Both the position numbers and the translations under genes were made by a program. From the NCBI RefSeq assembly GCF_020023995.1, contig NZ_NRRD01000002.1, positions 248,001 to 312,000 of the forward strand: a stretch of 64,000 nt of DNA, given 5' to 3'. Position 1 is the stretch's first letter; each line of letters begins with the position of its first letter. The DNA comes from Rhodobacter sp. TJ_12. Lineage in GTDB: Bacteria > Pseudomonadota > Alphaproteobacteria > Rhodobacterales > Rhodobacteraceae. Under the pieces are notes generated by a model. The model saw only the letters and a program-made list of their open reading frames with translations, was not told the DNA's origin and did no database searches. Shown here piece after piece: positions 1,714-10,867 of the stretch.

Positions 1714-2424
1714 ATGAAACGCTTCAAAATTAAAGAGCTCATCGTAAAACTTCCCACCGAAGGCTTCGATAAGACAGGCGAGTTCGATGGCAAAATTTGC
1801 AAGCAAGTGACGTTGTTGGAGTGTCCGGGGGGCGCAACCCGTGTGGACCCGGGACCGATTACCGATGGCCCCGTGGACCCCTGTCAACAAGTCACCCTGC
1901 TGAACTGTGCCAATCAGGCGACGCGGATTCAATGTGAGCTGACCCAAGTCCGAGAGCCTTGCCAACAAGTGACCTTGATTGATTGCGCGAATGGCGTGAC
2001 AAAGCAAACCTGCGACGGGCGGACGATGATCGTGGATTGCCAGCAGGTCACCTATCCCAATTGTAACGCCTCCGATGTCGGCGTCTTTGGAACCTTCTAT
2101 GGGCCGCGTTGCGGGTGCGGCGGTTGCTCGCCAATCCCCTGCACCAAAACCGAACCGACGACACTAGAAACCTGTCCGGTTACAGGCAATGCGAACGATG
2201 ATGCGGCGCTTTTCGTGGTCACGCGAGAGATTGATCGCATGCCGCTGGAATCGCTGTCTGTGCTGAAATCTCAATTGTCGGATGTCCTGCGTCGCACCGA
2301 AGAGGCGGAAAAGAAATATACGCCGTCTACCCCGCAAGAGTTGGATGCGGCAGAGGCCCAGTTGAAAGAGGCCCTGGCGGAAGTTGAGAAGCTTCGTGCC
2401 GAAATGAAAAACAAGTCCGAGTGA
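1714..2424 (+). CDS. Cys-rich tandem-repeat protein, putative lanthipeptide-type RiPP precursor
   Basis: The protein has 236 residues and matches no family I know by name. Residues 1-28 (MKRFKIKELIVKLP at the start) look like a RiPP leader. Residues 29-154 hold 15 cysteines and four copies of C-[KQ]-Q-V-T-x-x-x-C (Cys pairs 29/37, 57/65, 83/91, 109/117; period 26-28). Eight motifs place Ser or Thr exactly four residues before Cys: T33, T61, T70, T87, T96, T113, S139 and T150. That is the geometry needed for five-residue (methyl)lanthionine rings. A GCGGC-type segment lies at 133-138. Residues 160-236 are charged, Cys-free and predicted coiled coil, an unusual follower domain. The next two genes look like lyase and kinase/cyclase, which supports the precursor role. 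A structural Cys-rich protein is the alternative. The ribosome-binding site is weak. Confidence 0.6.
   Translation: MKRFKIKELIVKLPTEGFDKTGEFDGKICKQVTLLECPGGATRVDPGPITDGPVDPCQQVTLLNCANQATRIQCELTQVREPCQQVTLIDCANGVTKQTCDGRTMIVDCQQVTYPNCNASDVGVFGTFYGPRCGCGGCSPIPCTKTEPTTLETCPVTGNANDDAALFVVTREIDRMPLESLSVLKSQLSDVLRRTEEAEKKYTPSTPQELDAAEAQLKEALAEVEKLRAEMKNKSE
1798..2064 (+). repeat. Four tandem C-x-Q-V-T-x3-C protein repeats within the putative precursor
   Basis: The repeat units begin at 1798, 1882, 1960 and 2038, giving intervals of 84, 78 and 78 bp. Each encodes Cys-[Lys/Gln]-Gln-Val-Thr-[Leu/Tyr]-x-x-Cys. Units 2 and 3 also share a following C-A-N-x-x-T segment with a third Cys nine residues on. 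The DNA copies have drifted at synonymous positions, so the protein pattern is being conserved rather than a recent duplication being seen. Confidence 0.85.
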
Positions 2425-2431
2425 TTCTTGC

Positions 2432-3523
2432 ATGCAGGATGTTGCATTGCGGCCAGCCATTTGGGCGGCCGACGTTTTGCGGCAGGCTCTTATGGGGCAT
2501 GCCTGGGTTCGAACGGGTCCGCTTTACACCGCGCAACAGGCGCGTGATCTGGGGACAGAACTGCCCGATGGCTTTGTGGGGCTTGTGCGGCGCGAAGATG
2601 ATCGTGTCTTTGCCGTTGATGGGGATGGTTTCGCGCTTCTAGAGGCCCTAGACACCCCTAAGACTTTGGATCGGCGCGCGACTGATAAAAACCTTGTCAG
2701 GGCGATGGCAGAATTTGCCATGGACGGGGTCATCGCGCCGGCAAGCGCGAGCGCCGCAGCCCCGCGTTTTATCGAGATGTTGCCAAGCTTGGTTTCACCA
2801 AGCGCGCTGGACGCGGTGTCGCGCAATGTGCAGCGCTCCTATGAGGCGATCGACTTTGCCCTCGATTGGTCGGAGATTTTGGGGGAGAGCCTGTCGGCAA
2901 GTCTTTACGTTTACGGGCGCAGACAGCCCCACGACGGCGTGACAGGAGCCGATCTGGAGCATCTGGCCGCACAGATTGACAAATGGGCGGGCCTTGAACG
3001 GGTCATGGCGTCCGAATATTGGCAAGGTTGGCATGGTGCATTCGACAGCCCGTGCCGCCACAAGCTTTACGTAAGTGCTGATGCCTCTCCGGCGGGGCTT
3101 GCTGATGCGTTTGCCGCCTTGCCCGCGCTGCCGCGTTTGCGTGGCGCCAAAATCCCCGCGCAAGCGTATCACTATGGGCGGCCCGATTATTGCGTGCTTT
3201 ATTTGGCGGATGAGGCGGACGTGCCGATTTGGTCTGCGGCCCTGCGCGAGGCCCTGTCGCATATGGACGGTCTGGGGCTAAGTTTCACCACACCATTGGA
3301 TCGCAAGGGCGTTGTCTCGCTTGGCGTTGACCTGCCAGATGAGCAGGACGCTTCCCAAAGCCATCGCGCCCGTCAATCCGGGCTGATTGCACATCATATT
3401 CACGCAGCAACCCAAAATAATGCCACCCGGGACGACCGGAAGCATGAACTGCACTGGCGTTTGTTTCTGCACGGCTATCTGGGGGCGGGTTGCATTTCTA
3501 TCGAAGGGAATGGGGCACCGTGA
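2432..3523 (+). CDS. Putative stand-alone phospho-Ser/Thr lyase (HopA1-like) of the RiPP locus
   Basis: The protein has 363 residues and starts 8 bp after the putative precursor. The segment from about residue 205 to 310 resembles the HopA1/lyase proteins paired with lanthipeptide kinases: a KLYVSAD strand, a helix ending in AALPALPRL, KIPAQAYHYGRPD, then VLYLADEADV. In such systems the lyase removes phosphate from phospho-Ser/Thr to give dehydroamino acids. The basic residues in KLYVS, KIPAQ and YGRPD are candidate catalytic or phosphate-binding positions. The N-terminal ~130 residues are not recognisable. The assignment leans on remote resemblance plus context: the neighbouring synthetase has kinase and cyclase domains but no lyase domain. 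No signal peptide or membrane helix is seen. The stop overlaps the next gene's start. Confidence 0.45.
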   Translation: MQDVALRPAIWAADVLRQALMGHAWVRTGPLYTAQQARDLGTELPDGFVGLVRREDDRVFAVDGDGFALLEALDTPKTLDRRATDKNLVRAMAEFAMDGVIAPASASAAAPRFIEMLPSLVSPSALDAVSRNVQRSYEAIDFALDWSEILGESLSASLYVYGRRQPHDGVTGADLEHLAAQIDKWAGLERVMASEYWQGWHGAFDSPCRHKLYVSADASPAGLADAFAALPALPRLRGAKIPAQAYHYGRPDYCVLYLADEADVPIWSAALREALSHMDGLGLSFTTPLDRKGVVSLGVDLPDEQDASQSHRARQSGLIAHHIHAATQNNATRDDRKHELHWRLFLHGYLGAGCISIEGNGAP

Positions 3524-5964
3524 ACCAGATCGATCAGATTTCCGCTGTAGAAACCGCACCTGCCCTCTACCGCCTGCCGGATGGGGTCTTCTTTCGGCCT
3601 GCCACCCACTTGGGCGCAGAACACATGGCGGCGGTGAATGCCGCACCCGAAGATGTGATCTTGATGCGCAGGGGGGCGCGGGAACGCGACCAATTGATCA
3701 GTGCCGAGGTGGCGGATCTCTTGCGCTTGTTTTCGCAGCCTTTGACCATTGTGGATGCGGTTGTTCAATTCGCTGAACAAAGCGAAACCCCCGCCGAGGA
3801 AATCCTTGAAGAGGCTTTTCCGGCGTTTCAGTCGCTGGTTGAGCGGGGCTTCTTGGTTCCGGTCACCGAGACGGAAGAGGAACGTCCCACGACGCTGGAC
3901 ATTGGGACCGTTTTTGCTGAGCGTTATGAAGTTGCAGCGCTTCTGCGCAAGATGGAAGATACGGAAGTTTACCGCCTGCGCGCGATTGCAGGCACAGCAG
4001 CAGACACGGGCGCAGATCCAGCCCAAGGCGCAGATGCTGGGGCCGAACCGTCTGATTTCGTTTTGAAAATCTGCCATCGTGCCACGCGGCGTATGGTCAA
4101 CCTGATATCGCGCGAGGTGGCGATTTTAAAAGAGCTGGCGGATGCGGATTATTGCCCGACTTATGTCGAGCATGGCGTTCACGAAGACCGGCCCTTTGTG
4201 ATCATGACCTATCTGGATGCAGAGACGTCTCAATCCCTGACCGACCGCCTGTTAAACGCCGGCGGCCCCGAGGCGGTTGTGCAAATCAGCAAAAGGATCA
4301 TGTCGGTATTCGCGGATCTGGGGCGTCGCGGCATCATGCATGGCGATGTTCACCCCGGAAATGTCATGGTGTCCAAAGCGGGCGCTGTCTTCGTGATCGA
4401 TTTCGGGCAATCCCGTCTGCTCAAAGGCAAGCTTTCGCGCCATACGGCTGGGCGGGGTGCGGTTGACATCTATTACGAACCAGAGCTTGCCGCCGCCCTT
4501 GCCAAGGGGCAAGAGACCTTTCCGCCCGCAGTAGAGCAGGGGCAACAATTCACCGTTGCCGCGATGCTCTATCGGTTGTTGACCGGGCAGGCACATGTCA
4601 GGCTGCCCGCCTTGCGCAGCGAGCTTTTCCCTTTCTTGGCCGATCAAGTGTCGCGCCCGTTTCCGCAAAGTGTGAACCGGCGTGTTGCCAAGTTGGAGCC
4701 GGTTCTGAAACGCGCCTTGTCCAGCGCACCGGAAGAGCGTTTCCCAAGTTTCGCGGCTTTCCATAGCGCGTTTGACGAAGCGTTGGCGACGGAGGCGCCG
4801 CGATGCGTCGCGGGCCATGCAGAGCTGGCCAACCGCTATTTCGAAACGCTGAGCGCGCCCGATAAACGGTTTTTGTCCAATGGTTTTCTGGATCCTTGGT
4901 GCACGCTGAACAACGGGATGATTGGTGTGTCCTTCGCGTATCAAAGGCTAGCCGAACTTGGCTGGGCGCATCGGGGGCTTGCGTTGGCGGACGCTTGGCT
5001 GATTTGGGCAGAACAGATGGCCAGCGCGCCGCAGGCGTTCACAAGCCGCGACCGGGAAATCCGCTCCGACACGGTTGGCCGTGTCAGCCCCTTTCATACC
5101 GTGTCGGGGCTGCATTACGCCAGATCGTGCCTTGCCGCGCAAACCGGCGATGTCGCACTTTATGGCGAAGCGATTAAGGCCTTTGCCAGCAGCATTGATG
5201 CCCCCTGTCTCGAATGGGATCTGACGCTGGGCTGGGCCGGGGTCACCTTGGCGTTGGCTTTCATGGTCGCCAAGGGGCAAAAGGCCGGTTTCCCAGACAC
5301 GGCACTTTCCCCGGCCAAGGCACTTTTGCATGAACGCATCGCCAGACAGGAAAGCTGGTTGCAGGCACAGCCCGCACCCGCGGAACTAACCCGTGATGTG
5401 TTTTTGGGGGTTGCGCATGGCCCGCTCGGCCAACTGCATGCCGCGATTTTGGGGCATCAGGTCTTGGGCACCACGCCCGGGGACATTTGTGTTCAGCGCT
5501 TGGAACAACTGGCCGATTGCGCGGTGCGGATGGACGATATGGTGATCTGGCCCCGCATGGGGGGCGGGTTCAGCTATGGTTACGGGGTTCACGCCTATTC
5601 AAGCTGGTGTAACGGCAGCGCCGGTTTCGCCATGGTCTACAGCCACGCCGCAAAGGTGTTCGACCGGGCCGATTTTCGAGATATCGCGCTGGGCGCGGGC
5701 CTGCATGCGTTGCGCAATGACATCCAGTATCCGGATCTTTGCTGCGGCACGGCGGGGACCGCCTACGCCATGCTGTCTCTTTATCGGGCAACGGGGGACG
5801 CGCTTTGGGTAAGCCGTGCCCAAGATGCGGCCGATCGCGCCTTGGAGCATTCTCGGTCCTACGAACCAAGCGGTGCGCTTTATAAAGGGGAATTGGGCGT
5901 GATGTTGCTGCAACTAGACATCACAGACCCGGAAAATGCACGAATGCCCTGTTTTGAAATGTGA
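3520..5964 (+). CDS. RRE-like/protein kinase/LanC fusion, lanthionine synthetase-like
   Basis: I choose the GTG at 3520 (814 residues): it gives a GTGA overlap with the upstream stop and follows an AGGGA-type site. Residues ~20-120 resemble a PqqD-like winged helix, a likely leader-recognition element. Residues ~130-440 form a kinase: Lys in VLK (K183), the catalytic loop HGDVHPGN (H274-N281) and DFG at 294-296. The glycine loop is degenerate. Residues ~470-814 form a LanC-type cyclase barrel with AHG (H633), WCNG (C697) and CCGTAG (C741, C742). The CCG triplet gives a three-Cys zinc site as in ProcM-type cyclases instead of the usual Cys-His. It should phosphorylate and cyclise the Cys-rich precursor in the cytoplasm. 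It differs from class III/IV synthetases in lacking an N-terminal lyase domain and having an RRE-like one. Confidence 0.75.
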   Translation: MNQIDQISAVETAPALYRLPDGVFFRPATHLGAEHMAAVNAAPEDVILMRRGARERDQLISAEVADLLRLFSQPLTIVDAVVQFAEQSETPAEEILEEAFPAFQSLVERGFLVPVTETEEERPTTLDIGTVFAERYEVAALLRKMEDTEVYRLRAIAGTAADTGADPAQGADAGAEPSDFVLKICHRATRRMVNLISREVAILKELADADYCPTYVEHGVHEDRPFVIMTYLDAETSQSLTDRLLNAGGPEAVVQISKRIMSVFADLGRRGIMHGDVHPGNVMVSKAGAVFVIDFGQSRLLKGKLSRHTAGRGAVDIYYEPELAAALAKGQETFPPAVEQGQQFTVAAMLYRLLTGQAHVRLPALRSELFPFLADQVSRPFPQSVNRRVAKLEPVLKRALSSAPEERFPSFAAFHSAFDEALATEAPRCVAGHAELANRYFETLSAPDKRFLSNGFLDPWCTLNNGMIGVSFAYQRLAELGWAHRGLALADAWLIWAEQMASAPQAFTSRDREIRSDTVGRVSPFHTVSGLHYARSCLAAQTGDVALYGEAIKAFASSIDAPCLEWDLTLGWAGVTLALAFMVAKGQKAGFPDTALSPAKALLHERIARQESWLQAQPAPAELTRDVFLGVAHGPLGQLHAAILGHQVLGTTPGDICVQRLEQLADCAVRMDDMVIWPRMGGGFSYGYGVHAYSSWCNGSAGFAMVYSHAAKVFDRADFRDIALGAGLHALRNDIQYPDLCCGTAGTAYAMLSLYRATGDALWVSRAQDAADRALEHSRSYEPSGALYKGELGVMLLQLDITDPENARMPCFEM

Positions 5965-5974
5965 AAACCGCGCA

Positions 5975-6021
5975 CTCGCCCCAAGGCTATGATTTCAAGG
6001 CCCGGAATCCCTTGGGGCGAG
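5975..6021 (+). terminator. Strong hairpin closing the RiPP-like operon
   Basis: The arms CTCGCCCCAAGG (5975-5986) and CCTTGGGGCGAG (6010-6021) are perfectly complementary over 12 bp. An inner stem pairs GATTTC (5991-5996) with GGAATC (6004-6009). AT-rich sequence with T-tracts follows. It begins 11 bp after the synthetase stop, so it is a likely rho-independent terminator. Confidence 0.65.
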
Positions 6022-6369
6022 CGAATTTGATTTTGGCGGCGGCGCGTGGGGCGCGGTGCGTAAAGGCTCCGTGAAAGGGGCCTGTGATGTTGCGGCCCCG
6101 CCTGCGCGGCCTTTGGCAGGAAGGGAACGGCAGATCGCGGTGATGTCGGGCAGCGAAACCCTTGACTAAAATCTACACCCAACGTAAGAATCTGTTGTGC
6201 CCATGTGGGGGATTGTCTTCCTCTTGCCCAAATTCGTGGGGGTCGCCTACTCTTTTATAATTTGCCCTGTGCCGCACGCGCGAAAGCGAATGGCCCTGAT
6301 GATTGAACTTGCGTTTACACGACTGATGCCTGCCTTGTATCGTCACCTGACGTTAGAAAAGGAAAAGAC
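6022..6369. other. Intergenic region upstream of the MerR regulator
   Basis: About 350 bp with no supportable gene. A TTGACT hexamer at 6162-6167 followed after 17 bp by TAAGAA (6185-6190) is a possible but weak sigma-70 promoter. The ATG-initiated frames here are short and hydrophobic by chance and lack ribosome-binding sites. Confidence 0.35.
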
Positions 6370-6774
6370 ATGCCTGGCGCAGCGATGAAAATAGGAGAGC
6401 TTGCTAAGCGGGCAGGGGTCAGCCACCGCACCATCCACTATTATGAATCGCGTGGTCTGATTTCGCCAATGCAGCGCGAGGGGGCCTCGCATCGGATGTA
6501 TGAGGAAGAGGCTTTTCAGCGCCTAGAGAAAATCTCGGCCCTCAAGCATCTTGGACTGTCGCTTGAAGAGATCGAAGAGGTTCTTGATCTCTATTTCGAG
6601 GACACGCAGAGCCATCTTGCGGGCAAGAAGCGCGTGATCGAGATTCTCAAGGCGCAACTGGCCAAAACCGATGCGCAGATTGATGAGCTGGCGCAATTCC
6701 GCAGCGACCTGATCCGCAACATCCGCCATATGGAGCGTCTCTACGAAGACGCGCATTCGCCGCACTCTGCCTAA
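6370..6774 (+). CDS. MerR-family transcriptional regulator
   Basis: The protein has 134 residues. The N-terminal winged helix reads MKIGELAKRAGVSHRTIHYYESRGL, the hallmark of MerR proteins, followed by a long dimerisation helix (residues ~80-125). There are no cysteines in the C-terminal region, so a metal-thiolate sensor is unlikely; the effector is unknown. The ATG at 6370 is preceded by AAGGAAAAG at good spacing; the ATG at 6388 is an alternative start. The MFS pump gene 60 bp downstream on the same strand is the most likely target, either through autoregulation of the pair or through the short gap between them. Confidence 0.8.
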   Translation: MPGAAMKIGELAKRAGVSHRTIHYYESRGLISPMQREGASHRMYEEEAFQRLEKISALKHLGLSLEEIEEVLDLYFEDTQSHLAGKKRVIEILKAQLAKTDAQIDELAQFRSDLIRNIRHMERLYEDAHSPHSA

Positions 6775-6780
6775 ACAACA

Positions 6781-6794
6781 GGGGCATTCGCCCC
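6781..6794 (+). terminator. Small GC hairpin between the MerR and MFS genes
   Basis: GGGGC (6781-6785) pairs with GCCCC (6790-6794) across a 4-nt loop, followed by CTTTCC. It is short and could be an attenuator or weak terminator between regulator and pump genes. Confidence 0.3.
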
Positions 6795-6834
6795 GCTTTC
6801 CGCCCTAAATCTTCAGCTAACGTAAGGAAAAGAA

Positions 6835-7992
6835 ATGACGCTCCGTCACACGTCTCTTGTCGTCTTGCTGATGCTCACGGCGATAATCGTCGTCGGCCAG
6901 CTTTACATCACCATTCCCCTCACCGATGCCATTGCCGCCCAGTTTGCCACCGAACCGGCGCTTGCCGTGTGGTCAGGCACGGCCTTCGGCTTCGCCTACG
7001 CGGCCGGGTTTCTGCTTTGGGGCCCGCTGTCCGACCGGGGCGGGCGACGGCGGGTGTTGGTGCTCGGCCTTGTCTGCACCGGGGCGGTGACCGCCGCGTT
7101 AAGCCAGGCGCACGGGATCGAAGCCTTTCTCGCCGGGCGCGCCTTACAGGGGATTTTTGCCGCAAGTTTTCCCCCGGTGGCCCTCAGCCTGTTGGCAGAG
7201 GTTTTGCCGCCCGCCCGGCGTCCCTTCGGTATCTCTCTGATCAGTTTTGCCTTTTTGGCTGCGGCCCCGATCGCACAGGTGATTGGGGCGGCGCTTGCCG
7301 TGCCGCTGACCGCGTTCTTGCTTGTTCTGGCGCCCGCCTATGTGGCCATGGCCGCCGGGATCGCGCTGGTGCTTCCTGCTGCGCCTGCACCGGGCGCGGC
7401 CATGGCGGCGGCCCCTAACGGCGTGGGGCAAGGCTTGCTGAGAACGCCCCTTATCATGCTGAGCTGGGGCGCGGCGCTCACCGTGCTCTTTGGCTTCGTG
7501 ACGTTTCAGGCGGGTACCGCCGCGGGGCTTGGCGGCGGCTTTGATCCGCAACTCGTCCGCCTTGTCGGGCTGCCCCCGCTGGCGCTGAGCCTCTTTGCCG
7601 CCGCGCTGGCCAAACGCTTGGGCGGTCCGACCGTGCTGGCGCGCCTAGGTTTGGTCCTTGCCGCTGCGGGGCTTTTGCTGGCGGGGCTCTCTGGCCCGGT
7701 CACGTTGGCTGCGGCGGTTCTCGTCTCTGCCGGTGTCGGGCTTGTGGTGCCCGGGCTGATCGCAACGATTGCCGGTGCGGCCAGCAATGCCAACCGAGGC
7801 CTTGCACTGGCGCTTTATACCTTCTCGCTCTTTGTGGGGGCCAGCTTGGCGCCGCCAGTTAGCCGCGCGCTTGCGCCGCTGGGGCTTTGGTCGCTTTACG
7901 GGCTTGCGGCAAGTTTGCTGCTGGCGGCGGCTTTGGGGTTGTTTTGGGGGCAGCGCCGTCCCGCGCAGGCCCCGCAACCGATCCAAAATTGA
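6835..7992 (+). CDS. MFS transporter, drug-efflux-like
   Basis: The protein has 385 residues and about twelve hydrophobic helices, the usual size for a major-facilitator permease. The loop between helices 2 and 3 reads GPLSDRGGRRRVL, the conserved motif A of proton-coupled antiporters. An arginine in GRALQG of helix 4 is also typical of drug:H+ antiporters. It should act in the inner membrane as an exporter. The start is supported by GTAAGGAAAAG just upstream. It follows a MerR-type regulator, an arrangement common for inducible efflux pumps. The substrate is unknown. Export of the RiPP product from the upstream locus is conceivable but nothing shows it. Confidence 0.8.
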   Translation: MTLRHTSLVVLLMLTAIIVVGQLYITIPLTDAIAAQFATEPALAVWSGTAFGFAYAAGFLLWGPLSDRGGRRRVLVLGLVCTGAVTAALSQAHGIEAFLAGRALQGIFAASFPPVALSLLAEVLPPARRPFGISLISFAFLAAAPIAQVIGAALAVPLTAFLLVLAPAYVAMAAGIALVLPAAPAPGAAMAAAPNGVGQGLLRTPLIMLSWGAALTVLFGFVTFQAGTAAGLGGGFDPQLVRLVGLPPLALSLFAAALAKRLGGPTVLARLGLVLAAAGLLLAGLSGPVTLAAAVLVSAGVGLVVPGLIATIAGAASNANRGLALALYTFSLFVGASLAPPVSRALAPLGLWSLYGLAASLLLAAALGLFWGQRRPAQAPQPIQN

Positions 7993-8180: not shown

Positions 8181-9305
8181 ATGTTGCTTGTCAATTTTTA
8201 CGGGAATACATCAAGTTTCTTCGACGAAGCCTTCTACAACAGTTACACTGATCTTTTCGAACCGGATGTTTTAAGTATCTCGAGCACCGAAATCGTGCTC
8301 GAAAATCCGTCCAGCGGCTTTCAAACAACCTTCTCCGGCAGCGGCTTTCCTTTGGATCCGGAAAACCAGCCCCTCACCGGAACGATTACCTCTTTTTCCG
8401 TCGTGACCGACGGTTCGGTGTCCGGCTTGCCGGTGGTTGAATTCACGGGGATCAGCTGGGCGCTTGCCGATTTCGTCACCGCGCTCGATTCCCTATTTGA
8501 AGATGATAACGACGCACCGCTGAAAACACTGCTGAGCAGCCAAGACATCACGATTGATGCAACCACTGCGAATGCCGCGTGGATTGATAGCTTAGATGGT
8601 GTGACCTCCAACGTAGAGTTCTTGGGCTCGGCATTCGACGATGAAACCGGGGGCGGCTCTGGGAACGATCGTCTGATCGGCAATGCAGGCGCCGACACGC
8701 TGGATGGCGGGGACGGGCGCGACACGCTGTCGGGCGGCGACGGCGATGACTTCATCTTCGGGGGCGCCACCGCAGCCGACCGCGGCGACGTGATCTACGG
8801 CGGTGCGGGCCATGACAGCGTCGACGGCGGCTACGGCAATGATGAGCTGAACGGCGGCACCGGCAATGACACGATGGAAGGCAATTACGGCGCCGACACC
8901 TTGATCGGCAACGACGGGGACGATTTCCTCACCGGTTCGGTCTATTCGGATCTGATCTTTGGCGGCGACGGGCTCGACTTCATCAACGGCGGCTTCGGCA
9001 ATGACCGGGTGAACGGCGGCGCAGATGCCGACCGGTTCTACCACACCGGGATTGCAGGCCACGGAAGCGACTGGATTCAGGATTTCTCCTCGGCTGAGGG
9101 CGATCTGTTGCAATATGGCGGCGCCGGCGCAACCCGGAACCAGTTCCAGGTCAACTTCGCCGAGACCCCCGCCGGGACCGAGGCCGACGAAGCTTTCGTC
9201 ATTTACCGCCCGACGGGTCAGATCCTTTGGGCGTTGGTCGATGGCGCCGCGCAAGACAGCATCAATATCTTGATCAATGGGCAGAGCTACGACCTCTTGG
9301 CGTGA
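8181..9305 (+). CDS. RTX calcium-binding repeat protein, probably type I secreted
   Basis: The protein has 374 residues. Residues ~1-160 form a Ser/Thr/Asp-rich N-terminal region without a Sec signal peptide and without a family I recognise. Residues ~160-290 carry about ten glycine/aspartate nonapeptides of the form GGxGxDxLx (for example GNDRLIGNAGADTLDGGDG), which fold into a calcium-dependent parallel beta roll. The last ~80 residues are acidic and hydrophobic, as in C-terminal type I secretion signals. Such proteins leave the cell through an ABC/MFP/TolC channel, which is not in this window. No protease or lipase motif is visible, so the function may be surface-layer, adhesive or matrix. 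Confidence 0.8.
   Translation: MLLVNFYGNTSSFFDEAFYNSYTDLFEPDVLSISSTEIVLENPSSGFQTTFSGSGFPLDPENQPLTGTITSFSVVTDGSVSGLPVVEFTGISWALADFVTALDSLFEDDNDAPLKTLLSSQDITIDATTANAAWIDSLDGVTSNVEFLGSAFDDETGGGSGNDRLIGNAGADTLDGGDGRDTLSGGDGDDFIFGGATAADRGDVIYGGAGHDSVDGGYGNDELNGGTGNDTMEGNYGADTLIGNDGDDFLTGSVYSDLIFGGDGLDFINGGFGNDRVNGGADADRFYHTGIAGHGSDWIQDFSSAEGDLLQYGGAGATRNQFQVNFAETPAGTEADEAFVIYRPTGQILWALVDGAAQDSINILINGQSYDLLA
8655..9040 (+). repeat. RTX nonapeptide repeat block
   Basis: A run of GGxGxDxLx-type codon blocks encodes the calcium-binding beta roll of the RTX protein. The GGC/GAC/AAC codon pattern recurs every 27 bp with small gaps. Confidence 0.8.
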
Positions 9306-9548: not shown

Positions 9549-10013
9549 TTAGATCTGATGCCGTAACGGGTCCAATTGAGGGCACGGCCCGGTTTCGAAC
9601 ACGGCGACAGCAGGGTGATAGCTGGGCGATAGTCCGACCGAATGCAGCAAAAGATAGCTGATATGGCCGAACAGCAAACGCCTATAGGGGAAATCCGTGT
9701 GGATACGCCCCCGATAAAGGTAGCCAAGCCGATCGGAAGTGGCGGCACGGGTTTCGAACAGGCCCAAGAATTGCCCCTGCGGATCAGCGGGCGCAATCCA
9801 TAGGCTGCAAGACGGCCCGGATGCATCTGCGTAATCGGCTTGTTCAGGATAGACCAGTGTCAACCCTTGCGCCGCGAAGGCCTCGGTGATTTCGGGCGCA
9901 TACAGCGCAGCCCGCCACTGATCGCTGGCCTGCTGTTCCAAGCTTCCCATATTATACTTGAAGTATAGGGGAAACAGCATCGCCAGAAGGATAAGAGCGC
10001 CTGCCTTAATCAT
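9549..10013 (-). CDS. Membrane-anchored partner protein of the exosortase
   Basis: I take the ATG at 10013, which overlaps the exosortase stop (ATGA), giving 154 residues. A single N-terminal membrane helix (MIKAGALILLAMLFPLYF) is followed by a ~130-residue domain expected in the periplasm, with two cysteines and the segments LFETRA and RRLLFGHISYLLL. Size, topology and coupling recall EpsI-type proteins encoded next to exosortases, which are thought to assist the sorting machinery, but the sequence match is not strong enough to name it. It is the last gene of the three-gene minus-strand unit. Confidence 0.5.
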   Translation of the reverse strand: MIKAGALILLAMLFPLYFKYNMGSLEQQASDQWRAALYAPEITEAFAAQGLTLVYPEQADYADASGPSCSLWIAPADPQGQFLGLFETRAATSDRLGYLYRGRIHTDFPYRRLLFGHISYLLLHSVGLSPSYHPAVAVFETGPCPQLDPLRHQI

Positions 10014-10867
10014 GCGGCCACGCGACGGCTGGAAGCCAAAATGGGCAGTGTCACCATCCACACCAGCGTCGCCATCGCCACATATTGCGACCCGGTCCCC
10101 GAGTGCAGATAGTCAAAAAGATCTTCGTAGCGCACCATGAAGAAAAGCCGCGTCCAGTTGATCAGCACTACCCCGGCCAGCCCAACCAAAAGAAGCGGCC
10201 AATTCGCAAACGGACGGACACGATTGATCGATGCCAGCACCAGCCAAGCCAGCACCATGTAAGAGATACCATGCACAGAAGAGCAGCCCCACAAAATGGT
10301 CACGGTGTTTTCCGCACCCGTGGGGATGATCGTATTGCCGTTTACCGGATACCCCGCAGCAAGCGACACCACAAAGGCGTCTGCCACCAATATCGGCGCG
10401 CCAATCAGTTTGACCGGAATAAGCCCCCAGAAACCGGGCACCGCCATATAGGCAATCAGGCCGCCCAGTTGTTTCGACGAGCGCATCACCCGGACCCCGA
10501 CAACCGTCACCGCGATCCACGAAAACCATGTCATCGGCACATAGATCAGGGCAATGACGATCGCCACGATCGCCCAATCGCCCCAGCGGGGCGACAAGGG
10601 GGCGATTTCGATACGCGCTAGGCGCCATGCGGCCCACAAAGCCGCAAACAACAAGATCGGATTAATTGCCCCACCAGACAGCAGGGCCGAAACCAAGCCT
10701 TTTTCCGCCACATGTTCGGTGACTTCGAAAAAGTTGGCATTGACGAAGGCCGATAGCAACAAAAGGCTGTAAAGGGTTCCGCGCGGAAGGCTTTGAAAAG
10801 CCGCGCGGAACACGCGCTCAAAGGCGTTACGGCTGTCAGCGGGAAAGCTGTCCGATCCAGACCGCAT
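10010..10867 (-). CDS. Exosortase/archaeosortase family transpeptidase
   Basis: The protein has 285 residues and about eight membrane helices. The family's catalytic triad is visible: Cys195 in WGCSSVHG, Arg240 in NWTRLFFM and His255 in YLHSGTGS, each at the periplasmic side of late helices as in exosortases. Exosortases cut C-terminal PEP-CTERM-like tripartite signals (motif, membrane helix, basic tail) during export and probably attach the product to surface carbohydrate. The neighbouring 65-residue protein on the same strand carries such a tail, so it is the obvious substrate. No polysaccharide biosynthesis genes surround it, unlike most exosortase loci. The subfamily is not assigned. Confidence 0.75.
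   Translation of the reverse strand: MRSGSDSFPADSRNAFERVFRAAFQSLPRGTLYSLLLLSAFVNANFFEVTEHVAEKGLVSALLSGGAINPILLFAALWAAWRLARIEIAPLSPRWGDWAIVAIVIALIYVPMTWFSWIAVTVVGVRVMRSSKQLGGLIAYMAVPGFWGLIPVKLIGAPILVADAFVVSLAAGYPVNGNTIIPTGAENTVTILWGCSSVHGISYMVLAWLVLASINRVRPFANWPLLLVGLAGVVLINWTRLFFMVRYEDLFDYLHSGTGSQYVAMATLVWMVTLPILASSRRVAA

Follow-up and report, generated by a model that had tools for sequence, protein, structure and literature searches.

A conserved operon of Rhodobacter sp. TJ_12 encoding a predicted RRE-guided, two-protein lanthipeptide synthetase and a protein-sized precursor

Introduction

Lanthipeptide synthetases of classes III to VI differ in how lyase, kinase and LanC cyclase are laid out. 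In class V the lyase, the kinase and a putative LanC are three proteins according to the consulted part of a review (PMC10676316), which also describes class VI (LanKCb, from streptococci) as a single chain, its lyase and cyclase truncated, that acts on short substrates. Class IV LanL carries an N-terminal lyase inside the chain (PMC10604976), and in class III the lyase is fused as well, the cyclase being without zinc ligands (PMC9486802, PMC10604976). As far as the consulted sections state, the core enzymes of classes II-V all lack an identifiable recognition element for ribosomally synthesised and post-translationally modified peptides (RiPP recognition element, RRE; PMC10604976, 2023), and the authors describing the cacaoidin cluster found none either (PMC8068269). 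Here we describe three adjacent plus-strand genes at positions 1714-5964 of a 64,000-nucleotide stretch of Rhodobacter sp. TJ_12 DNA (contig NZ_NRRD01000002.1, positions 248,001 to 312,000; hereafter the window), encoding a Cys-rich precursor, a stand-alone lyase and an RRE-kinase-LanC synthetase. The operon belongs to a real, conserved system that we read as a putative class-level variant of lanthipeptide machinery, and we estimate at about 0.78 the probability that it specifies an RRE-guided two-protein lanthipeptide synthetase together with its protein-sized substrate.

Results

The three genes were delineated by reading of open reading frames (ORFs) and sequence, and are followed by a downstream hairpin. 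The lyase ORF begins 7 bases past the precursor stop, and the synthetase ORF, which starts with GTG, shares 4 bases with that of the lyase (Table 1). An earlier note, made from the letters alone, had pictured tightly packed genes ended by a strong hairpin, and indeed both the ORFs and a 12-bp stem were found.

The synthetase is matched in Pfam by LANC_like (3.4e-25), APH (5.1e-12) and Pkinase (1.8e-9). AHG, WCNG (WCQG in L009) and CCG motifs are present in 14/14 LanC-bearing synthetases, and in 7/7 replicates; these ligand motifs support a predicted LanC domain of the zinc type. A likeness of the synthetase to the defence kinase MADS6 was also seen, and was read as plain kinase similarity. The N-terminal domain, modelled from a 13-row alignment (pLDDT 83), has PqqD (5sxy) as its top PDB match (E 2.5e-3, TMt 0.68), and 19 of its top 27 matches are proteins of RiPP, pyrroloquinoline quinone (PQQ) or microcin pathways, which we take to contain RREs. 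The model hence resembles a winged-helix RRE of the PqqD type, and the predicted peptide-binding domain is shared with PqqD itself and with RRE-fused RiPP enzymes such as LanB, TbtB and ThcOx.

For the window lyase, Pfam, NCBIfam and sequence searches of solved structures yielded no matches worth keeping; weak Pfam matches to Autoind_bind (window lyase) and NdhM (L004 lyase) were discarded as noise. A model built from a 16-row alignment (pLDDT 74) was more informative: its 18 best PDB matches are HopA1, LxmY, the class III synthetases PneKC, SalKC and ThurKC, or CuvL, six of them with E <= 0.001, and Foldseek ranks 1-5 are taken by HopA1 (5.5e-6) and LxmY of the class V dehydratase LxmKY (1.1e-4). 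K211, K240, R250, D252, S310 and R312 are invariant across the 25 aligned lyases, that of the window included, and Y257 is kept in 24/25. The spacing of K240, R250 and Y257, 10 and 7 residues, equals that of K219, R229 and Y236 in the class V lyase CaoY (PMC9486802). By position, K211 may occupy the place of CaoY Arg187 and of the SpvC Lys. Together, predicted fold and conserved residues support the assignment of the stand-alone gene as a putative lyase of the HopA1/LanY type.

The lyase also appears to carry a recognition domain of its own. Alignment by hhalign of 12 lyase N-terminal domains to the synthetase RRE gave a probability of 92% (E 5.6e-7), and the synthetase RRE run against the whole lyase profile matched the N-terminal region too (75%, E 2.5e-5). 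From these profile comparisons, which are new here, the lyase N-terminal domain is probably RRE-like and homologous to that of the synthetase. It is missing in L016-L021 and L055, and the N-terminus of the L053 lyase remains unaligned.

The window precursor runs from a strand-like start through a core whose 15 Cys stand in CxQVTxxxC repeats to a long, helical-looking C-terminus, and scans of Pfam and NCBIfam returned no family matches worth keeping. Homologous precursors open with a motif like F-x-V-K-D-L-M-I-x-V; across loci, the strand-like leader is common and the C-terminal helix is found in most. A profile of the helix from eight precursors, the window segment being one, and a leader profile from nine were each run against 1258 ORFs taken from a further thirteen loci. 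Predicted precursors took 9 of the top 10 ranks with the helix profile (L058 coming 14th and L020 15th), those of L017, L055 and L056 not being among the 22 matches listed, and 6 of the top 7 with the leader profile (L020 11th, L057 17th, L052 20th), with those of L053, L055, L056 and L058 absent from the 22 listed. E-values were mostly weak (best 9e-14 for the helix and 0.0057 for the leader), and the candidates had been chosen by eye beforehand. In Paenibacillus peoriae (L003:7840-8592), the precursor consists of three near-identical leader-core-helix units within one chain.

The spacing between Cys and Ser/Thr in the core was assessed with Cys positions held fixed over 12 offsets, using one of the three L003 units and omitting L013, which is near-identical to L004. 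In the window core, [S/T]-x3-C occurs at 8/15 Cys against 2.5 expected (p 0.0012) and C-x3-[S/T] at 6/15 against 2.5 (p 0.022); the segment CQQVTLLNC would permit rings of either kind, C-x3-T or T-x3-C. The C-x3-[S/T] spacing is pronounced in nine homologues (41/70 Cys versus 14.3 expected, z 8.9), and stands at 15/33 versus 5.5 when L005, L007, L010 and L022 are taken out.

Cys content of the precursor follows the presence of LanC. In L016-L021, LanC is degenerate or missing, and the leader-bearing precursors, taken from their likely start, have no Cys (L017, L019, L020, L021) or one (L016, L018), while each precursor found in a LanC-bearing locus (window, L003-L007, L010-L013, L052-L058) has 2 to 21. 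Precursors with at least two Cys are accordingly found in 17/17 LanC-bearing loci versus 0/6 LanC-less ones. These 23 loci are not independent, the LanC-less ones representing about two lineages by eye, and L004/L013 and L056/L058 being near pairs. The comparison leaves aside L008 (precursor not found), L009, L014 and L015 (at the edge of a contig or gene), L022 (synthetase truncated by the contig end) and L023-L030 (short or weak). LanC and precursor Cys have been lost in coupled fashion. The LanC-less branch combines an RRE-kinase with a short lyase, and comes from Cellulomonas, Humibacillus, Neoroseomonas and a Nitrosomonas metagenome-assembled genome (MAG); its products are possibly dehydroamino-acid peptides without rings.

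Relatives were searched for in plasmids and genomes. Of 72,556 plasmid records, 17 were matched by the synthetase in tblastn, two with at least 80% query coverage, from P. peoriae (30% identity) and Cupriavidus oxalaticus (27%); the same records gave no match to the lyase alone and none to the whole window precursor. P. peoriae (L003) has the gene order of the window, and in the Cupriavidus loci L004 and L013 (strain amp6) a precursor-lyase operon is convergent with the synthetase. One scan of genome contigs for the synthetase retrieved 26 loci, and the lyase profile finds a lyase in 15 of them (L005-L008, L010-L013, L016-L022), on the same strand upstream of the synthetase in 14 and in a convergent operon in L013. 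The 11 loci lacking a lyase match are contig or gene edges (L009, L014, L015) or short or weak matches (L023-L030). Among these last, two Bacteroidota MAGs encode RRE-kinase-like proteins of 422 and 435 residues (L023:7001-8269 and L025:6812-8119), with no lyase in the stretch examined. Going by record titles, the 15 lyase-bearing loci come from Bradyrhizobium, Neoroseomonas, Nitrosomonas, Cupriavidus, Bailinhaonella, Catellatospora, Cellulomonas and Humibacillus, and from Acidobacteriia, Thermoanaerobaculum, Gemmatimonadales, Verrucomicrobia and Chitinophagia; with Paenibacillus, the lyase-synthetase pair presumably reaches six phyla besides Pseudomonadota.

Searches of genomes with the lyase alignment matched 1/385 genomes of the class and 1/398 of the phylum, the window's own genome both times, and, counting the starting genome, 3/396, 3/247, 4/130 and 1/125 in the phyla of L010, L006, L007 and L011, respectively. 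The window lyase alone matched 2/295 genomes of the family, its own and, weakly, G223 (61 residues, E 3.4e-4), where the 3.2-kb locus (L002) has no match to the lyase or synthetase profile; the same-genus genome G046 matched neither the window lyase nor the lyase alignment. These counts are lower bounds, because the first pass scores only few candidates per genome. In all seven loci newly found via the lyase profile, an RRE-kinase-LanC gene adjoins the lyase. One scan of viral contigs gave five pattern matches and no relatives.

Taken together, most of what the earlier note had read from the letters holds. Its stand-alone HopA1-type lyase agrees with the predicted fold and the homologue alignments, its protein kinase and CCG-type LanC with Pfam and the motif alignment, and its PqqD-like synthetase N-terminus with the modelled PqqD/RRE fold. 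The Cys-rich repeat protein with a leader-like start finds counterparts in the leader-bearing precursors that recur, like the lyase-synthetase pair, in other genomes, and occurrence of the repeat protein apart from the synthetase was not seen in the plasmid tblastn. The family profiles that it proposed to consult matched kinase and LanC, and left lyase and RRE, without Pfam or NCBIfam match, to be assigned from folds and homologue alignments. The note did not extend to the RRE-like lyase domain, the helix at the C-terminus of precursors or the branch without a cyclase.

Table 1. Features of the operon and their positions in the window.
Feature	Position	Strand	Basis
Precursor protein, 236 residues, 15 Cys	1714..2424	+	ORF; placed and laid out alike in homologous loci
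Strand-like leader (residues 1-17), candidate site for RRE binding	1714..1764	+	alternating-hydrophobic motif common to homologous precursors
Cys-rich core (residues 29-154, spanning first to last Cys), CxQVTxxxC repeats	1798..2175	+	sequence, spacing statistics
Helical segment conserved at the C-terminus (residues 177-236), which may be a second recognition element	2242..2421	+	precursor profile; helix read from sequence
Stand-alone HopA1/LanY-type phospho-Ser/Thr lyase (predicted), 363 residues	2432..3523	+	model pLDDT 74, PDB matches, K211/K240/R250 in 25/25
RRE-like N-terminal domain of lyase, about residues 22-105	2495..2746	+	profile-profile match to synthetase RRE
RRE-kinase-LanC synthetase, 814 residues, GTG start	3520..5964	+	ORF, Pfam, NCBIfam
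RRE/PqqD-like domain of synthetase, about residues 17-115	3568..3864	+	model pLDDT 83; best PDB match PqqD 5sxy
Protein kinase domain, about residues 135-420, with K183, E199, HGDVHPGN, DFG	3922..4779	+	Pfam, motif alignment
LanC-type cyclase domain, residues 462-813, AHG/WCNG/CCG motifs	4903..5958	+	Pfam 3.4e-25, profile positions 6-349 of 350
Hairpin after operon, 12-bp perfect stem	5975..6021	+	fold z -3.3

For positions 5962-6042 (81 nt), the folding energy is -36 kcal/mol, versus -25.1 +/- 3.3 for shuffled sequences (z -3.3; 2/200 shuffles equally good), and the T-run 3' of the hairpin is weak; a terminator is plausible here, not certain. Directly downstream lie a MerR regulator and a major facilitator superfamily transporter (window 6370-7992), not noticed as common to the other loci listed. 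They are followed by a protein with RTX calcium-binding repeats (window 8181-9305, PF00353) and, on the minus strand, two overlapping genes (window 9549-10867), which we take, by resemblance, to be an exosortase and an EpsI-like partner; the protein at 10013-10867 had no match in a Pfam scan at 0.001.

Several relatives have additional genes. In Cupriavidus (L013:5161-6294, L004:12369-13442, minus strand), a synthetase-type RRE is fused to a 2-oxoglutarate-Fe(II) oxygenase within the precursor-lyase operon; the L013 fusion matches PF13640 (3.2e-12), which suggests hydroxylation as an additional modification. A full LanB-type dehydratase gene (PF04738, PF14028; L013:7805-10972) adjoins this fusion gene. 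A second protein kinase gene stands beside the synthetase in the Gemmatimonadota and Acidobacteriota loci L055, L056 (1891-4779), L057, L058, L007, L009 and L014, that of L056, the only one scanned, being a Pkinase-TPR protein. In the Verrucomicrobia locus, a radical S-adenosylmethionine gene lies nearby (L011:3909-5030), surrounded by genes that read as ABC/HlyD/TolC-like.

Discussion

From the observed gene order, domains, predicted folds, conserved residues, co-inheritance and coupled loss of LanC and Cys we infer a scheme in which substrate binding, reactions, residue roles, rings and product function are modelled, beyond domain assignment, on class III-V enzymology. The precursor would present its strand-like leader, and probably its C-terminal helix too, to the RRE-like domains on both enzymes, whereupon the kinase of the fusion protein would phosphorylate Ser/Thr in the Cys-rich core. 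The separate HopA1/LanY-type lyase would then eliminate phosphate to yield dehydroalanine or dehydrobutyrine (Dha/Dhb), with Lys240 as a likely base supported by Lys211 and Arg250, and finally the zinc LanC domain would add Cys thiols, forming several (methyl)lanthionine rings. That the product is a secreted antagonistic or signalling protein is a guess, to which we give somewhat less than even odds.

A number of observations weigh against this assignment. The PDB matches of the synthetase RRE are weak, none reaching E <= 0.001, and 8 of the top 27 are protein lysine methyltransferases; neither lyase nor RRE is backed by any family profile of Pfam or NCBIfam, the pLDDT of the lyase model is just 74, and the N-terminal domain of the window lyase is divergent. 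The L055 lyase has His in place of Y257. Kinase motifs deviate in L007 (HGDVC and EFG) and L006 (DLG), and a pattern search found no HGD..N in L054 and no DFG in L053, L056 and L058. Regarding the substrates, the L055 precursor was chosen by eye and neither precursor profile recovers it or that of L056, L008 is without a recognisable precursor in its 16 kb, and the L011 precursor is devoid of the C-terminal helix. No common protease, exporter or immunity gene was noticed in the neighbours listed for eight loci, with ten proteins scanned. Core spacing is likewise uneven: C-x3-[S/T] is weaker in eight replicate precursors (19/66 versus 11.5, z 2.7), where it is driven by L052, and other spacings prevail, with C-x2-[S/T] leading overall (29 versus 13.4) and in L054. 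The [S/T]-x3-C spacing that stands out in the window shows no enrichment in homologues (9/70 versus 13.8) and is depleted in the replicate precursors (4/66 versus 11.6). These set-to-set differences imply that a biased Cys-Ser/Thr spacing is common, that the data do not establish a single ring rule and that the T-x3-C pattern of the window is not common to the others. A universal C-x3-[S/T] rule, drawn from the first ten precursors, was therefore dropped, as the replicate set did not uphold its universality.

The kinase-LanC part is most like class IV LanL, in which a protein kinase is also followed by a zinc-type LanC in one chain, and which provides the best NCBIfam match (NF038150, 4.7e-33, model positions 236-808 of 851), although at 114.5 bits versus a cut-off of 650. 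The zinc-type motifs, as far as sequence can tell, are shared; the N-terminal lyase stretch of LanL, however, is unmatched in the window synthetase, whose N-terminus is an RRE, and the lyase is a separate gene. LanL usually has CHG, and the window LanC has CCG. The consulted part of a review gives the LanC ligands as Cys-Cys-His/Cys (PMC10676316).

Class V LanK/LanY pairs (CaoK/CaoY, LxmK/LxmY) are alike in having a separate HopA1-type lyase and, as predicted for the window, in phosphorylation followed by elimination, and the window lyase fits them by its Foldseek ranks and conserved residues, with no match to PF17914. The class V kinase, however, is a separate APH-type protein, whereas that of the window shares its chain with RRE and LanC, and the window lyase has an RRE-like domain; a stand-alone, aminoglycoside-phosphotransferase-like LanK is thus not what the window encodes. 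Class III LanKC enzymes (ThurKC, PneKC, SalKC) resemble the synthetase in kinase and LanC-like fold, and match the lyase model, presumably via their lyase domains, but the window has zinc-type motifs and a separate lyase, and NF038151 scores 78 bits versus 575. Class VI shares kinase and cyclase in one chain; as that class is characterised in the review, the window differs by its separate lyase, with no lyase stretch in the synthetase, by a full-length LanC and by a 236-residue precursor. None of classes III to VI as described matches, congruent with the earlier note that the layout fits no known class, and its term undescribed can be kept within the open-access literature searched, the consulted parts of which contain no recognised description of an RRE-kinase-LanC protein paired with a stand-alone HopA1-type lyase. 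In two RRE surveys (PMC12710340, PMC7470986), a term search of the main text found no mention of kinase or HopA1. According to its consulted part, PMC7268733 files any protein with LanC and PF00069 under class III or IV, so RRE-kinase-LanC proteins may sit unnoticed in class III/IV lists.

We consider it an even call whether the locus stands for a separate lanthipeptide class that has yet to be named, with one protein-sized precursor held by RRE-like domains on the HopA1-type lyase and on the kinase-LanC protein. In this reading many rings would form with Cys N-terminal of Ser/Thr (C-x3-S/T), and a branch without cyclase would make Cys-free dehydroamino-acid proteins. Less probable, and in our view rather unlikely, is that an existing class was rearranged, either class IV with a class V-type lyase or class V with a fused LanC, so that the system merits no class of its own, the RRE being an accessory. 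Such a rearrangement would account for the best score of the kinase-LanC part being against LanL and for the lyase fold being closest to HopA1 and class V LxmY, and all parts are known, given the separate lyase, kinase and putative LanC described for class V (PMC10676316); yet neither class combines a lyase-free synthetase chain, a kinase fused to LanC and RRE-like domains on both enzymes, and the presence of the layout in several phyla points to a stable lineage rather than a single accident.

It is improbable that the precursor is dehydrated to a product other than lanthionine, with LanC performing another thiol addition or Dha/Dhb being the end product: the LanC-less branch with Cys-poor precursors (L016-L021) does suggest that kinase and lyase can stand alone, but the LanC motifs are intact in 21/21 LanC-bearing loci, and the 17 precursors in LanC-bearing loci have Cys, with Ser/Thr spacing off chance. 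Finally, we find it very hard to credit an ordinary structural or metal-binding role for the Cys-rich repeat protein, with its neighbours serving other substrates or signalling, for although plasmid tblastn gave the whole precursor no homologue and the core is, presumably, long for a lanthipeptide, the leader and C-terminal helix are common to equally placed proteins in other loci and Cys content tracks LanC.

If the RRE-guided two-protein synthetase is correctly read, it would add a class-level layout beyond the lyase-kinase-LanC single chain and the separate LanK and LanY, and would extend RRE-guided targeting to dehydration by kinase and lyase. Protein-sized, multi-ring substrates would moreover be appealing for the engineering of stable scaffolds. 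The lineages with and without LanC would offer a natural experiment on whether dehydration must lead to cyclisation.

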